A stretch of 20,331 nt of DNA from a virus. A program made the translations under genes and the position numbers. Shown here in pieces: positions 1,066 to 9,120 of the stretch. The notes below the pieces were generated by a model. The model searched no databases. It saw nothing but the letters and a program-made list of their open reading frames with translations, and was not told the DNA's origin. Positions within the stretch are counted from its first letter, which is position 1. Each line of letters begins with the position of its first letter. Where the stretch lies: the IMG/VR virus record IMGVR_UViG_3300044225_000851, positions 1 to 20,331 of that record; one strand, 5' to 3'.

Positions 1066-1094
1066 ACTATAACAAGAAAGGGGGGTCTTGTCAA
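1066..1094 (-). promoter_or_regulatory. Early-type sigma70-like promoter P1
   Basis: The -35 box TTGACA is at 1094-1089 and the -10 box TATAGT at 1071-1066, separated by exactly 17 nt. The spacer ends in TGT, giving an extended -10 (TGn). The predicted transcript starts near 1059 and carries a GAGAAAGAGAG element before the ATG at 1035. It drives the four-gene run ending in the SleB hydrolase. The -35 box lies inside the loop of a terminator hairpin. Confidence 0.85.
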
Positions 1095-1103
1095 CCCCCC
1101 TTT
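1077..1103. terminator. Bidirectional terminator hairpin overlapping P1
   Basis: On the plus strand AAAGGGGGG (1077-1085) pairs with CCCCCCTTT (1095-1103) around a 9-nt loop. On the plus strand it is followed by TTTTATT; read on the minus strand the T run is TTTC. It would end transcription from the 64/35-residue operon upstream. Its loop sequence contains the P1 -35 box, so terminator and promoter share DNA. Confidence 0.65.
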
Positions 1104-1154
1104 TATTCCCAACAATTACAACGATTTATCAAGTCACATTTCTCATCATAAAAA

Positions 1155-1173
1155 CGAATCGTAGCGAATCGTG
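1155..1173 (-). repeat. CACGATTCG tandem motif, cluster A
   Basis: On the minus strand this reads CACGATTCGC-T-ACGATTCG, two copies of a GATTCG core 10 nt apart. Exactly 60 nt separate its promoter-proximal edge (1155) from the P1 -35 box (1094). A near-identical pair stands at the same distance from P2. Each core is a GANTC site. It is probably a protein-binding site, which is an inference. Confidence 0.6.
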
Positions 1174-1179
1174 GGAAAG

Positions 1180-1227
1180 TGATTCGGTGGCTTTTGATGA
1201 TGAGAGAGAGAGGTGCCAACCGAATCA
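1180..1227. other. Imperfect hairpin after the 35-residue gene
   Basis: TGATTCGGTGGC (1180-1191) pairs with GCCAACCGAATCA (1215-1227) with one bulged base, leaving a 23-nt loop rich in GA. It begins 7 nt after the stop at 1234. No T run follows on the minus strand, so it is not a classical terminator; it may protect the mRNA end or present two further GANTC sites. Confidence 0.4.
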
Positions 1228-1233
1228 AACTGT

Positions 1234-1341
1234 TTAATCCATACAACCTTTCATCAATCCCTCTGTTGCACATGGATCTTCTATGTATCCAACAATCATT
1301 ATACAGGCAATGATAACCAATATCGGAACTATATTATTCAT
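1234..1341 (-). CDS. Small single-pass membrane protein, 35 residues
   Basis: The protein MNNIVPILVIIACIMIVGYI continues into EDPCATEGLMKGCMD. Residues 4-20 form one hydrophobic membrane segment, followed by a short tail with two Cys. The ATG at 1341 shares bases with the stop of the upstream gene (TAATG), which argues for coupled translation. Tiny inner-membrane proteins are common in T4-like early regions, where some affect host functions or superinfection; nothing here shows which. Last gene of its operon, followed by a hairpin at 1180-1227. Confidence 0.65.
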   Translation of the reverse strand: MNNIVPILVIIACIMIVGYIEDPCATEGLMKGCMD

Positions 1342-1535
1342 TAAGAACGAACTCCACCAATAGGGCAAACAGTCTTTACGATATTGAAAGGATTGTCTGC
1401 AAGAAAGATCTGACACTGATAACCAGTTTTCTTTGCAATCTTGATTGCCTTTTCTAGTGTGTCAGTCGCACCACAAGTATAACCAAAATTAGTGAGGAAT
1501 ACTTCGTACTTAACATTTGGTGCTTTTGGTATCAT
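1341..1535 (-). CDS. Hypothetical 64-residue protein
   Basis: Not recognised. It starts MIPKAPNVKYEVFLTNFGYTCG and looks like a small alpha-beta fold: a strand, a helix rich in Lys (LEKAIKIAKKTGY) and a second strand (CQIFL). Three Cys are present but not arranged as a zinc knuckle. The ATG at 1535 is preceded by AGGAG with about 8 nt spacing; an in-frame TTG at 1541 is too close to that site. It follows the 120-residue gene by 11 nt and overlaps the membrane peptide gene downstream, so the three form one operon from P2. Confidence 0.65.
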   Translation of the reverse strand: MIPKAPNVKYEVFLTNFGYTCGATDTLEKAIKIAKKTGYQCQIFLADNPFNIVKTVCPIGGVRS

Positions 1536-1546
1536 AAACAAATCTC

Positions 1547-1909
1547 CTATTTCAAATACTCAGGGCCAGTCCAACGAATACGGAAACCACCCTCTAGAAC
1601 ATTACCACGAGCTGCGTTACGAGCAGGAGCATTGTAACCAGCAGGTTTTAACAAATCACCTTTTTTGAATTTCTTATCATTTTCAGTATTGACAACAAAT
1701 CCCCAAACATTTCCACCATGTTTTTGCAAAATCTTTGTGTATTTTGGGCCAGTCTTAACTACCCAACCTTCTGCAAACTCTTTGTTCATTTTAACACGAG
1801 TTTCGGTATCTGGTTGCATCCACTGACCATAATCATAGATTGCAGCATCAATCATGTTCTGAATACCATCTTCTAAATTATCAAACTGTTTCTGGATCTG
1901 AATAGTCAT
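1547..1909 (-). CDS. Hypothetical 120-residue protein, first gene behind P2
   Basis: Not recognised. The N-terminal half is helical and acidic (DNLEDGIQNMIDAAIYDYGQW) and the C-terminal part is rich in Gly, Asn and Arg (PAGYNAPARNAARGNV) before GFRIRWTGPEYLK. The ATG at 1909 follows the purine-rich leader GAGAAAGAGAG, the same element seen at two other early-type starts; an in-frame TTG six codons upstream lies inside that leader and is rejected. With a near-consensus promoter just upstream it is probably expressed early. No catalytic motif is visible. Confidence 0.7.
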   Translation of the reverse strand: MTIQIQKQFDNLEDGIQNMIDAAIYDYGQWMQPDTETRVKMNKEFAEGWVVKTGPKYTKILQKHGGNVWGFVVNTENDKKFKKGDLLKPAGYNAPARNAARGNVLEGGFRIRWTGPEYLK

Positions 1910-1938
1910 TTTTTCTCTCTTTCTCAATGTTACTACTC

Positions 1939-1967
1939 ATATTACCAGATGATTTACTATATGTCAA
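1939..1967 (-). promoter_or_regulatory. Early-type sigma70-like promoter P2
   Basis: TTGACA at 1967-1962 and TAATAT at 1944-1939, with a 17-nt spacer ending in TGG (extended -10). Like P1, the -35 box is preceded by GGGG. The leader of about 25 nt carries GAGAAAGAGAG before the ATG at 1909. It drives the 120-, 64- and 35-residue genes. Confidence 0.85.
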
Positions 1968-2027
1968 CCCCATCTCTAAAACACTGTTATCACTAGATTT
2001 TTCAAACCCATCTTTTTGGGATTTTTG

Positions 2028-2045
2028 CGAATCGTGCGAATCGTG
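2028..2045 (-). repeat. CACGATTCG tandem motif, cluster B
   Basis: The minus strand reads CACGATTCG CACGATTCG, two exact 9-nt copies in tandem, with a third GATTC at 2047-2051. Exactly 60 nt lie between its proximal edge (2028) and the P2 -35 box (1967), the same as cluster A to P1. The rest of 1910-2122 shows no convincing gene. Confidence 0.6.
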
Positions 2046-2122
2046 AGAATCACTGGGGTTTCCAGACCATGTTTGTGACCTTTGTCTATTTGAAAACACA
2101 GACCTCTGGATAGGTGTCACCC

Positions 2123-2632
2123 TCATGCGTCAGCAACCAATCCACTAGCAGAACGACTTGCTTGTGGATATACGTCTGGTTCTGGTATCATAAAGTTATC
2201 GTCCCAACCAAATGCTTCCTTCACCACAGCCGCAGACAATCCTTTATAAACTTGATGCAACTTTTTATCTTTCGCATTGATAAGAAGTTTTGCTTCACTT
2301 TCATGCAATCCCTCCAACATCTGAAAGAACATATTTTCTTTCTGGTGTTGTTTAGTCACGTTATCTGCACCTTCAATAAATCTCCACAGTTTCTTTGCCT
2401 CTTGTGCCAACACAGTGTGTTCTGTACCAGCAGGGGCATCATTTGGTGTATAAGGAACATCCCCAGCAGGGAATACCCATCTCTTTGTTGGGTCAAATGC
2501 AGCCTTGAGCAACATTCTCAATGAGTCTGTATTGTGTTCTCTAAGAATTGCAACTTTTTGTGATTTAGTTTTTGCTTTGTGTACCTTATCTAATACTTCA
2601 GAAAAAAGTAAAACGTAAGTTTGTTCTGCCAT
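2123..2632 (-). CDS. Conserved T4-like phage protein, DUF6433-like
   Basis: This 169-residue protein begins MAEQTYVLLFSEVLDKVHKA and continues with a Lys-rich helix. It resembles, from memory, an uncharacterised family (DUF6433) widespread in marine T4-like phages, often near replication genes; the name should be confirmed by profile search. The sequence is largely helical and soluble with no signal peptide or metal motif. The ATG at 2632 follows GGAGACTTTTAAA, a good ribosome-binding site, one base after the RNase H stop at 2634. It is the last confident gene of the bS21-RNase H operon. A role in DNA replication or recombination is suggested only by its neighbours. Confidence 0.75.
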   Translation of the reverse strand: MAEQTYVLLFSEVLDKVHKAKTKSQKVAILREHNTDSLRMLLKAAFDPTKRWVFPAGDVPYTPNDAPAGTEHTVLAQEAKKLWRFIEGADNVTKQHQKENMFFQMLEGLHESEAKLLINAKDKKLHQVYKGLSAAVVKEAFGWDDNFMIPEPDVYPQASRSASGLVADA

Positions 2633-4589: not shown

Positions 4590-4993
4590 TTTATTTTTTT
4601 CTCCCCATAGGCACCATAATAGTCATCACAGTAGTCCCCATGTTTTAGATAATGTTTTAGATGTCTTATATATCCTTCTGCACTATGATACTTTGCCTTT
4701 GCACCTTTGACATCTTTTCGCACTTCGTATCTTAAACTAGACATCAGATCTTTCTGGGACTTGATCCAATTCTTAACATTTTTTGCAGACAACACATGGT
4801 CATCATCTAGTGCAAGAACAGAATGATGTATTGATTCATTCTTTGCTGGTTTTCTTGCAGCACGAGCCTTCGCAAGACGTTCTGCTGCAGCAACCTTTTG
4901 TTCTGGTGTCATGGGTTTCCTTTTCTTTTTAGGTTTAGGTTGAACCCATCCATCATTAGTAGTTGTTGATGCCACTATTTTTTTTCTACTCAT
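4559..4993 (-). CDS. Basic, Lys-rich phage protein of unknown role
   Basis: A 144-residue protein with a strongly basic first half (QPKPKKKRKPMTPEQKVAAAERLAKARAARK in two short stretches around residues 18-48) that would bind nucleic acid or be flexible. It is followed by a helical part and a Tyr/Asp-rich segment (HGDYCDDYYGAYGEKK). Proteins of this look occur in marine T4-like phages, but I cannot name a family. The ATG at 4993 overlaps the bS21 stop by 8 nt (ATGAGTAG), so its translation is probably tied to bS21. Nucleic-acid binding is inferred from composition. Confidence 0.7.
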   Translation of the reverse strand: MSRKKIVASTTTNDGWVQPKPKKKRKPMTPEQKVAAAERLAKARAARKPAKNESIHHSVLALDDDHVLSAKNVKNWIKSQKDLMSSLRYEVRKDVKGAKAKYHSAEGYIRHLKHYLKHGDYCDDYYGAYGEKKIKWQTITSKGM

Positions 4994-5207
4994 TAGGCCA
5001 TTGTCCTTGTTCCTTGAGTTTATCCACTTTCTTCAACCACCTTCTTCTACCAGCAGCTCGTTGAAGTCTCTTTTTTTCACCTTTACTTCTAAAGGCAGTT
5101 CGTTCTCTCAGTTCGTTAAAGACACCCTCAATTTGCATACGTTTCTTTAGAACTCGCAATGCACCATTGAGGTCATCTCCACGAACTGTTACTTTTAATC
5201 CAGACAA
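4986..5207 (-). CDS. rpsU: Phage-encoded ribosomal protein bS21
   Basis: The 73-residue product has the bS21 layout: a short beta start (LKVTVRGDDLNGALRVLKKRM), then EGVFNELRERTAFRSKGEKKR and a long Arg/Lys helix (LQRAAGRRRWLKKVDKL). In bacteria bS21 sits on the 30S platform next to the 3' end of 16S rRNA and helps start translation; bS21 homologues are known from marine phages. No ATG gives a normal-length protein. The TTG at 5207 lies 7 nt after AGAGG and yields a family-like length, so it is chosen; an ATG at 5231 would overlap the lipoprotein gene by 14 nt. The ribosome-binding site straddles the lipoprotein stop. The phage copy might replace or compete with host bS21 and bias ribosomes toward phage mRNA (inference). 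Confidence 0.85.
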   Translation of the reverse strand: MSGLKVTVRGDDLNGALRVLKKRMQIEGVFNELRERTAFRSKGEKKRLQRAAGRRRWLKKVDKLKEQGQWPNE

Positions 5208-5217
5208 AGTTTTTCCT

Positions 5218-5892
5218 CTATTCTGCCGCATCAACAACCTTGTTGATTTCGGTTTCAATGTTTGACATTGATAAAGTCTGATCTTCATCCTTTGATGCAT
5301 CTACTTCATTCTGAAGTTCTTTCCATGCATTGGTAGAACGAATCTTACCATAGACCATACGATCTTTCATCATACGGTTCATAATGATCTTACGAGCCTC
5401 TTCCTCTGAATACTCAAGTAAAACATATGCACGAAACTGTGTTCCTGTTGGATATATCTCCATCTCTTTTGGATTGTAACCAGCAACATCAACTGATGCA
5501 ATCACATTCTTTGTGACCTTCTCAACTTCTGACATTGTAGTTGCAGACACATCATCATCTGTACCAAGTCGTGTTACAAATGTTTTCATCATTGCATCCA
5601 ACTTACCATTGATACGATCAGCAAGAGTATACTTTGCATTGAGTGTTGCCATGTCGATAGACAATTGCAAGTCTGGTGACTGTGCAGTACCGACACTATA
5701 GATTGACTTCTCATCAGTTGGTAATGTTGTAAACCAAGATGGGACTGTTTTGGTTGCAGCCTCTACCTTTTCTTGTTTATACTCAACAGATGAGGTATTC
5801 AACATCTGTGTCGCATCTGGATTATTAGAACAGGCACCAAGTGTAAGGACACTTCCCAATACTCCAACAGTTACATAATTTAGATTATTCAT
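5218..5892 (-). CDS. Outer-membrane type lipoprotein, LPP20-like
   Basis: A 224-residue precursor with a lipoprotein signal: a hydrophobic run (residues 6-19) and lipobox LGAC with Cys21, followed by SNNP, so it is probably lipidated and exported. The mature part, PSWFTTLPTDEKSIYSVGTAQSP and the helix after it, resembles the LPP20/DUF-type lipoproteins of Gram-negative bacteria. The C-terminus is acidic and helical. The ATG at 5892 overlaps the previous stop (TAATG), with GGAGG about 10 nt upstream. Finding it between a membrane peptide and bS21 is odd; a host-derived gene, surface exclusion, or an envelope function during infection are possible. Lipoprotein nature is well supported; the family match is moderate. 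Confidence 0.75.
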   Translation of the reverse strand: MNNLNYVTVGVLGSVLTLGACSNNPDATQMLNTSSVEYKQEKVEAATKTVPSWFTTLPTDEKSIYSVGTAQSPDLQLSIDMATLNAKYTLADRINGKLDAMMKTFVTRLGTDDDVSATTMSEVEKVTKNVIASVDVAGYNPKEMEIYPTGTQFRAYVLLEYSEEEARKIIMNRMMKDRMVYGKIRSTNAWKELQNEVDASKDEDQTLSMSNIETEINKVVDAAE

Positions 5893-6592: not shown

Positions 6593-6621
6593 ATCCTACC
6601 ACGATTCGGAAATGATGTCAA
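6593..6621 (-). promoter_or_regulatory. Early-type sigma70-like promoter P3 with motif in spacer
   Basis: TTGACA at 6621-6616, TAGGAT at 6598-6593, spacer 17 nt ending in TGG (extended -10). The -35 box overlaps the stop of the nuclease gene. The spacer contains CACGATTCG on the plus strand (6600-6608), the motif also found upstream of P1 and P2. The leader carries GAGAAAGAG before the ATG at 6564. Confidence 0.8.
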
Positions 6622-7053: not shown

Positions 7054-7207
7054 CATCGTACTCCTCGTCATATCCGACTTCATCTTCCATGTCATCATCT
7101 AATGCATCACCACAAAATGGACAATGCCATACACTATATAGTCGTTTGTCCATATTGTGTTTTATGGAAAATTCTGCTTCACATGACAGGCACACAATTA
7201 ATTTCAT
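7046..7207 (-). CDS. Small zinc-ribbon protein, 53 residues
   Basis: The product MKLIVCLSCEAEFSIKHNMD continues through VWHCPFCGDALDD into an acidic tail. Two CxxC pairs (C6/C9 and C29/C32) form a classic zinc ribbon of about 35 residues. The ATG at 7207 overlaps the RNR stop as ATGA. Similar short ribbons occur in marine myoviruses. A role as a nucleic-acid or protein-binding adaptor is possible, but nothing in the sequence fixes it. The tail, about 18 residues, is almost all Asp, Glu and Tyr. Confidence 0.75.
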   Translation of the reverse strand: MKLIVCLSCEAEFSIKHNMDKRLYSVWHCPFCGDALDDDMEDEVGYDEEYDDE

Positions 7208-9120
7208 TGAATTTCACAAGCCCCTGCCACACAAGCAAGTTCTTGTGAACCAACTGTCATATCCATAGATTCATATTCTGAAAGTTTACTCCAATCAACC
7301 TGTTTAGGCATCTTGTTCAATAAGAACTTATATTCTTTCTCATCACAATCTTGATATGGTGCTTGTTGATATGTGTGTTCACTAAATGGTAGGAATGACA
7401 CCCCAGACATCCAGTCAAAGTTTTTGTAAACCCATGAACCAACTTCCATCCACTCACTTTCTTTCACAGAAATAGTCACAGATGGTTTGTGTTCACACCA
7501 ATGTTTCTGATAAGTCAACCACAACTCCAACTGTTCAACAGCAGACATATCTGTTCTAAATACTGCACTTCTGTCTACTTTCATGGGGAATGAAAATACA
7601 GATGTGTTTGATGGATTCATTACATCATCCTCAACTGGAAAACCAATATCAGTCATCATCTTTGTCAATGGATCTTTCTTGTCACCACGAACAGTGCGAA
7701 TATAATATGGATTATGTCGTGCATGAATACCAGAGGCTGCATCTACAAGTTGTGACACTGTGCCAGATGGTTTTACACAAGTGACCGCAGCAGATTGTGG
7801 GATACCTAACTTCTCTGCCCAGATTTTGTTCGTCTTAACTGCCTCTTCTCTCAAGTCATCAAGTAACCCACTAAGATTTTTCTCTTTACCATTTGTTAAA
7901 CAACAATCCATGATACCAGTGAGTGAGACACCAAGTAGTCTTTCCTCTGCACAATTTTTTCTCCACATTGCAGATACATATTTGAAGTTTGTAAGTGTAG
8001 ATTGGAATGTTCCAAGAATGGTTGCAAGTCTTACTTTTTCCATAAGGGACTCTTTAGTATCTGAAGGTCTTACCACTACCTCTGAAAGATTACAAAACTC
8101 TCTATCTCGTAATATGATCTCCGAACAAGGATTCGTGCCGAACTCATGTTCTGTATCTCTACGACCATTCTTTGCAGCCATGTTCACTGCACTTGCACGA
8201 TTAAAGATACCTCTTTCACCAGACTTGGAATCATAAAGTGCTTTCCACTCATCCATGAAGATACCCATATCTGGTTTTTCTGTGTAACAAGCAGAGTTAT
8301 TTGCAAGTGCTCGTTGTCCATTCTGTTCCCACCATTGACCCGACTTTGCGTGTCTCATTCGGTCATCAGAGAGGTTTGAGAGACTTATGAGCGCACTTCG
8401 CCTTACACCCCCTACTACAACTACCTCTGCAATCTTACAAACAATATCGTGACATTCGATAGAAGATAGTTTTCTACCATTTGCATTTTTGAGTACATTC
8501 ACTGTAAAATTAAATAGATTGTCTAGTGGTGCAGGCCCAGACGCACGACCACCAAAAGTTTTAAGTGGTGCTCCTGCTGGTCTTACTTTAGATAAATCCC
8601 ATCTTGGTATCTGTCCAATGTAAAGTAATCCTACAAGTTCCTTGAACGCCTTTGCCCAACCAAGTTTACTATCTGCAACAGTAATAACTGTATCAGATGG
8701 AAAAAACTCTTCTGCAACAACTGGTAGTTCAGCAATGTGTTGTCTCTCGACTGAAAAACCAACACCAGTTCCATTCATCAAAATGTATAGTATTTCATCA
8801 AATGATTGAATACGATTTACTGCAACATAAGAGCAATTATAACCAGCAATGTTTTCTCTTTTCAATGCATCACCAGCAGTCATCAAACATCTCATGGAAG
8901 GCATAACCTTCGTGGCCAAGACTGCGTTTTCTAGTTCTTTTCTATCTTTGTCTTCTAACTCATAACCAGTCATATCTTTTAGGTGTTCTTTGAAGAAGTT
9001 AAAATATCTTCCTACTGTTTCGTTCCAAGTTTCTCTACGACCCTCTTTGGGCAACCATCTGGAATATCTTGATAGGTGAATAAATTCTTGATATGATGTT
9101 GGTAAAAAGTTATTAGGCAT
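7204..9120 (-). CDS. nrdJ: Adenosylcobalamin-dependent ribonucleotide reductase (class II, monomeric)
   Basis: Reduces ribonucleotides, probably triphosphates, to deoxyribonucleotides for phage DNA synthesis using vitamin B12. At 638 residues it resembles the monomeric RTPR of Lactobacillus leichmannii (739) but is shorter. Key residues: C96 (YNCSY), C332 with E334 (NPCSEI) and C343 (FCNLS). The spacing +2 and +11 equals RTPR C408, E410 and C419, and C96 fits C119. The C-terminal CVAGAC (C630, C635) matches the swinging thiol pair. No NrdAB-type radical subunit gene accompanies it. The ATG at 9120 follows GGAGAAAAATCA and overlaps the primase stop by 8 nt. Co-transcribed with primase from P4. 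Confidence 0.93.
   Translation of the reverse strand: MPNNFLPTSYQEFIHLSRYSRWLPKEGRRETWNETVGRYFNFFKEHLKDMTGYELEDKDRKELENAVLATKVMPSMRCLMTAGDALKRENIAGYNCSYVAVNRIQSFDEILYILMNGTGVGFSVERQHIAELPVVAEEFFPSDTVITVADSKLGWAKAFKELVGLLYIGQIPRWDLSKVRPAGAPLKTFGGRASGPAPLDNLFNFTVNVLKNANGRKLSSIECHDIVCKIAEVVVVGGVRRSALISLSNLSDDRMRHAKSGQWWEQNGQRALANNSACYTEKPDMGIFMDEWKALYDSKSGERGIFNRASAVNMAAKNGRRDTEHEFGTNPCSEIILRDREFCNLSEVVVRPSDTKESLMEKVRLATILGTFQSTLTNFKYVSAMWRKNCAEERLLGVSLTGIMDCCLTNGKEKNLSGLLDDLREEAVKTNKIWAEKLGIPQSAAVTCVKPSGTVSQLVDAASGIHARHNPYYIRTVRGDKKDPLTKMMTDIGFPVEDDVMNPSNTSVFSFPMKVDRSAVFRTDMSAVEQLELWLTYQKHWCEHKPSVTISVKESEWMEVGSWVYKNFDWMSGVSFLPFSEHTYQQAPYQDCDEKEYKFLLNKMPKQVDWSKLSEYESMDMTVGSQELACVAGACEIQ

Follow-up and report, generated by a model that had tools for sequence, protein, structure and literature searches.

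What does a short word do in a phage genome when it is repeated ahead of two predicted promoters and found again inside the spacer of a third? The window, i.e. the whole stretch of DNA analyzed, is a 20.3-kb piece of a marine T4-type phage with nearly all of its genes on the minus strand and no tRNA genes; among isolates, the Methylophilales phage Melnitz is nearest at the DNA level, with 67% over 21% of a 7.5-kb query. Its genes include a class II (B12-dependent) ribonucleotide reductase (7204-9120, minus strand) that shares 66.6% identity with the enzyme of Puniceispirillum phage HMO-2011, and a phage-encoded homologue of ribosomal protein S21 (4986-5300, minus strand; Pfam PF01165, E 9e-10). 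A preliminary description had proposed that tandem copies of a 9-mer, CACGATTCG, mark the site of a regulator that acts from upstream at promoters P1 and P2 and possibly from within the spacer at P3. The predicted promoters and the copies of the word are as follows, with placement classes A and B as defined below.

1066-1094, minus strand: predicted promoter P1, with TTGACA at 1089-1094, 17 nt, TATAGT at 1066-1071 and a TG before the -10; kept in relatives.
1939-1967, minus strand: predicted promoter P2, with TTGACA at 1962-1967, 17 nt and TAATAT at 1939-1944.
6593-6621, minus strand: predicted promoter P3, with TTGACA at 6616-6621, 17 nt and TAGGAT at 6593-6598.
1155-1163, minus strand: box copy TACGATTCG at P1, class A, one mismatch to the 9-mer.
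1165-1173, minus strand: box copy CACGATTCG at P1, class A, exact.
1180-1186, plus strand: inverted box TGATTCG at P1, of which the minus-strand CGAATC is the right arm of hairpin 1.
1221-1227, minus strand: box copy TGATTCG at P1, the left arm of hairpin 1.
2028-2036, minus strand: box copy CACGATTCG at P2, class A, exact.
2037-2045, minus strand: box copy CACGATTCG at P2, class A, exact.
2046-2054, minus strand: degenerate third 9-nt unit at P2, with GATTCT.
6600-6608, plus strand: class B box in the P3 spacer, which reads CCGAATCGTGGTAGGAT on the promoter strand.

The tandem repetition of the 9-mer is real, as four exact copies of CACGATTCG occur in the window against a shuffle mean of 0.03 and no shuffle reaches four. 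Both pairs of cores reported at P1 and P2 are present; the third unit at P2, the inverted copy at P1 and the copy in the hairpin arm had been missed. The coordinates also agree with a P3 copy that lies within the spacer, in the opposite direction relative to transcription. The exact 60-nt distance to the -35 holds at P1 and P2 (1095-1154 and 1968-2027) but not in relatives, where it ranges over roughly 60-94 nt, with many near 75 nt. Twenty-six matches with exactly 69 nt from AAGTGATTCG to TTGACA come mostly from one freshwater gene family (EVLEVIRGRKPAHQRE) and were treated as a coding coincidence.

Relatives were collected in two ways, through protein homology and through the motif itself. 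The conserved unit in them is YGATTCG rather than the 9-mer; it lies mostly within AAGTGATTCGC and recurs at predicted promoters. Enrichment was calculated for 11 phage contigs (508 kb), partly kin to one another, the promoter zone being set at -95 to about +22 relative to predicted promoters, or 5.5% of the 508 kb. In this set 45 of the 86 copies of TGATTCG fall inside the zone, as do 17 of 26 copies of CGATTCG, and TGATTCG tops all 7-mers for promoter-zone enrichment, bar pieces of the -35. Single contigs behave alike, with 8/12 TGATTCG copies in the zone for G002 and 9/17 for the 146.6-kb G014. The flank controls AGATTCG (1/30) and GGATTCG (1/22) are hardly seen in the zone, and the GASTC forms are not enriched there (TGAGTCG 1/10, CGAGTCG 0/4). 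The nominal P of 1e-33 overstates the enrichment because the contigs are partly related; the flank contrast is independent of P. Generic GANTC marking by CcrM, with no flank preference, was rejected: GANTC occurs at expectation in the phage contigs and RGATTCG is not promoter-associated.

Placement was analyzed over 616 non-redundant promoter-like sites, the promoters being predicted as consensus matches. Since some of the loci had been retrieved through the motif itself, evidence for class A counts only from an unselected subset of 196 non-redundant promoter-like sites, the loci of which came through protein homology or from contigs behind those; classes B and C are absent from every fetch pattern. 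In class A (87 of 616 sites), to which P1 and P2 belong, YGATTCG stands at -94 to -60 relative to the -35, facing either way and often in tandem. Class B (33 of 616 sites) has CGAATCR in the spacer, centered 16-17 nt from the start of TTGACA and adjoining the -10, with an orientation bias of 34 to 1; its consensus is TTGACATTNNNAACGAATCRTGTTANNNT, several copies occur per genome, and P3 of the window is a member. Class C (27 sites) has a sense YGATTCG that follows the start of TTGACA by 28-60 nt, i.e. at the predicted start site, and its orientation is nearly uniform, whereas class A occurs in both orientations. Only 5 of the 616 sites combine more than one class at a promoter. In the 196 unselected sites, TGATTCG leads all 7-mers in the class A window, with 25 sites, and occurs 0 times in -59 to -8; in the class B window the leader is GAATCAT (17). 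Class A promoters also have in common a second box, CAANGAYTTA, near the -35; with up to one mismatch to TAAGTCATTG or CAATGACTTA, it is present at 22/83 class A promoters, 1/55 class B or C promoters and 5/474 others. The core proposal, a regulator site upstream of P1 and P2 and in the P3 spacer, withstands the refutation test set in the preliminary description, since in related phages the copies cluster at promoters and the placements recur; support for the description is partial, as neither the 9-mer as the unit nor the exact 60 nt holds up. Judged from these patterns, the feature is a real promoter-linked regulatory box, of which the preliminary description saw three members.

A group- or host-specific regulator is the leading reading of the box, and the host cofactor GcrA is its strongest named rival. 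With confidence slightly short of even, YGATTCG is suggested to be the recognition box of one sequence-specific regulator of sigma-70-type early promoters in uncultured marine T4-like phages. Each promoter would normally carry one placement, either class B, in the spacer at the -10 (as at P3), class C, at the start site, or class A, upstream; at P1 and P2 the class A arrangement would combine a box at about -110 from the start with CAANGAYTTA near the -35. As the class B and C positions overlap the RNA polymerase footprint, a protein bound there may block or hold the polymerase and so provide shut-off or timing of early genes, and class A may act via a complex that bridges both boxes. A single protein would then serve all three placements, the reader would be other than GcrA, and the sign of its effect would presumably be that of a block or hold. 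Against this reading, a blocking protein would be oddly placed at about -110. Pfam searches of ten window proteins returned no DNA-binding family, and inspection of the motif-bearing contigs, which are fragments, revealed no obvious shared DNA-binding protein. The class II ribonucleotide reductase is among the genes that these contigs have in common and that Melnitz, HTVC008M and Mosig lack (no match in the three at E 1e-4).

The box may instead be an extended CcrM-methylated GANTC site that is read by the host sigma-70 cofactor GcrA, a possible but rather doubtful explanation. YGATTCG agrees throughout with the published GcrA motif, YGAKTCG/YGAKTCK (PMC7987155), Y and G flanks included, and the AGATTCG and GGATTCG controls lack these flanks. 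GcrA positions were taken from PMC7987155 and PMC3667746; the Caulobacter GcrA regulon is defined by a zone of -40 to +40 around the start (PMC7987155), which, measured from predicted starts, would accommodate classes B and C, P3 included, but not the class A boxes of P1 and P2 at about -110. GcrA is encoded in 8/8 SAR11 genomes searched, and the methylation of SAR11 GANTC sites (PMC9516812) also counts for this reading. The closest counterparts of the window's class II ribonucleotide reductase are in SAR116 and Roseobacter phages, which suggests an alphaproteobacterial host.

On the other hand, the GASTC forms, including the GAGTC that K allows, and generic GANTC share none of the enrichment, and gcrA was not found in 20 phage contigs. 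No promoter association is seen in the alphaproteobacterial phages Mosig and HTVC008M (both Pelagibacter), Cr30, phiM12, OC, RHph_I1_18, HMO-2011 and CRP-2; it is missing from Melnitz and DLP6 as well, thus from ten isolate phages in all, a negative result that is weak for those isolates with few predicted promoters. The class B arrangement occurs in 0/385 alphaproteobacterial genomes. Methylation sensing, the second option of the preliminary description, therefore keeps the match of the Y and G flanks to YGAKTCG (PMC7987155) and is opposed by the absence of GANTC enrichment, the unused GASTC forms, the lack of gcrA in the contigs and the isolates without association. In short, the box resembles a GcrA/CcrM site in its 7-bp core with both flanks and in the proximity of classes B and C to the -10 or the predicted start; it differs in using the T form only, in the class A position near -110, and in an arrangement that is missing from the 385 alphaproteobacterial genomes and the eight alphaproteobacterial isolate phages.

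Three related candidates were rejected. A phage-encoded GcrA is found in none of the 20 contigs; a phage N6/N4 methyltransferase as the common partner is carried only by contigs G006 and G019; and SAR11 is not an obvious source of the architecture, as YGATTCG is not promoter-associated over 400 kb of one genome, in which only 25 promoters were predicted. The HTVC008M genome (L364, L384, L385) is strongly depleted in GANTC, with 28 GATTC against 180 expected and 15 GACTC against 72 over both strands, and about half of the pelagiphages are reported to show GANTC depletion (PMC9516812). The SAR11 genome G025 (L511-L530) has 269 GATTC against 524 expected and 239 GACTC against 224, the latter not depleted.

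A phage-encoded activator like T4 MotA, with the box as its site and as the mark of a middle promoter class, is an unlikely reader. The fixed orientation and phase of class B beside the -10 would suit such an activator, and T4 MotA middle promoters likewise have a short, phage-group-specific box common to many T4-type promoters; however, the sequence differs, and here the -35 is intact and the box occupies the spacer, the start site or a far-upstream position. MotA promoters lack a good TTGACA, whereas all box promoters retain one. The MotA box TGCTTTA, which takes the place of the -35 some 30 nt ahead of the start, is present at none of P1, P2 and P3, where TTGACA is found, and the start-site position of class C would be unusual for an activator. 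Another comparison is offered by mycobacteriophage L5 and its relatives, in which stoperators serve as dispersed repressor sites. These too are short asymmetric sites strewn over a phage genome with an orientation fixed to transcription; the boxes described here differ in being tied to specific promoter positions and in belonging to T4-type phages, and a repressor gene was not found. Recognizable middle promoters are missing in marine T4-like phages (PMC9004378, PMC7029224), which leaves room for an unknown system.

The region upstream of P1 folds with z = -5.1 and comprises the following elements.

1181-1226, minus strand: hairpin 1, GATTCGGTTGGC / GCCACCGAATC, with conserved loop CCTCTCTCTCTCATCATC.
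1106-1178, minus strand: helix 2 region, TTCCCACGATTCGCTACGATTCG ... AATCGTTGTAATTGTTGGGAA, which, as judged by alignment inspection, incorporates both tandem P1 boxes.
1077-1103, minus strand: intrinsic-terminator-like hairpin, AAAGGGGGG-TTGAC-AAGACCCCCCTTT, with the P1 -35 in its loop.

Over 19 diverse relatives 96.9% of the hairpin 1 cells are paired, 27 cells are changed on both sides against 7.8 in shuffles, and the covariation score is 0.372 compared with at most 0.072 for slid partners. The inner pairs covary and the pyrimidine-rich loop is conserved. The right arm CGAATC is invariant in 19/19 sequences and the left arm shows G-U wobble, a pattern that fits selection on the DNA word itself. 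By inspection, ATGATGAG of the helix 2 region probably pairs with CTCATCAT of loop 1 as a pseudoknot, for which the proposed partners are written CUCAUCAU/AUGAUGAG. The GGG/CCC core of the terminator-like hairpin is kept in 19/19 sequences, and since its loop carries the P1 TTGACA, terminator and promoter overlap. The P1 region is retained across relatives while the flanking genes on both sides vary. A search of the hairpin region against Rfam 15 gave no family match; two weak window matches, both below the gathering score, lie elsewhere than P1. The place of the P1 copies in a covarying hairpin region with a promoter-overlapping terminator had escaped the preliminary description.

Several further observations concern the surroundings of this region. 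A conserved loop, CUCUCUCUCAUCAUC, within the structured region 1066-1230 (minus strand) is complementary to the GAGAAAGAGAG leaders of the genes behind P1 and P2, so that a trans-acting RNA is conceivable; these genes have a common leader, GAGAAAGAGAGAAA, just before ATG (1036-1054 and 1910-1930, minus strand). An unlisted small frame, MNNIVPILVIIACMIVGYIEDPCATEGLMKGCMD (1234-1338, minus strand), is conserved in relatives directly upstream of the P1 region. At L184:936 (minus strand) and L187:8168 (minus strand) a further GGGGGTTGACAAACCCCC-type promoter is preceded by a different inverted repeat, CTGACACTCTGTAATGTAGTGTCAG, and by GATTCG boxes.

The P2 copies lie in a reading frame that had likewise been overlooked.

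1881-2126, minus strand: 81-aa reading frame, SDSHDSHDSQ, spanning P2 and its boxes.

The start of this frame overlaps the end of a 169-aa gene, its shorter relatives end in NKNKDLK, and the 9-nt repeat corresponds to three codons (HDS). Class A counterparts in relatives take the form of an inverted CGAATCACTT inside a gene of roughly 198 aa (frame NESL), or else they sit where a 117-aa gene (SDSLDSQ) or the relative of the 169-aa gene (VASDSYP) ends. Class A copies thus span at least four different genes in varied frames and orientations, which argues for selection on DNA; conservation of the box is observed at that level. That the P1 copies are RNA arms, that the P2 copies encode part of a repetitive small protein and that both have the word by coincidence could draw on the fold and covariation at P1, on the HDS codons at P2 and on one freshwater gene family with AAGTGATTCG ahead of a promoter-like site purely as coding sequence, but is highly improbable in view of the equivalent copies in other genes, frames and orientations, the enrichment across all contigs, the class B position in the spacer, which its own promoter does not transcribe, and the invariant right arm of hairpin 1 opposite a wobbling left arm.

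There is about an even chance that an undescribed regulon box organizes early transcription from three positions in an uncultured group of marine T4-like phages, and that at P1 it is joined to a structured RNA and to a terminator that has the promoter's -35 as its loop. The box bears on gene timing in marine T4-like phages of heterotrophs, in which recognizable middle promoters are missing (PMC9004378) and for which, in the case of pelagimyophages, the methods used on cyanophages failed (PMC7029224). If the reader were host GcrA, phage early promoters would sense host DNA methylation and the state of the cell cycle; no report of such a link between phage early transcription and host DNA methylation via GcrA was found in open-license papers. 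As it is recognizable from sequence, the box allows candidate members of the regulon to be picked out of metagenomes and offers a direct route to the regulator.
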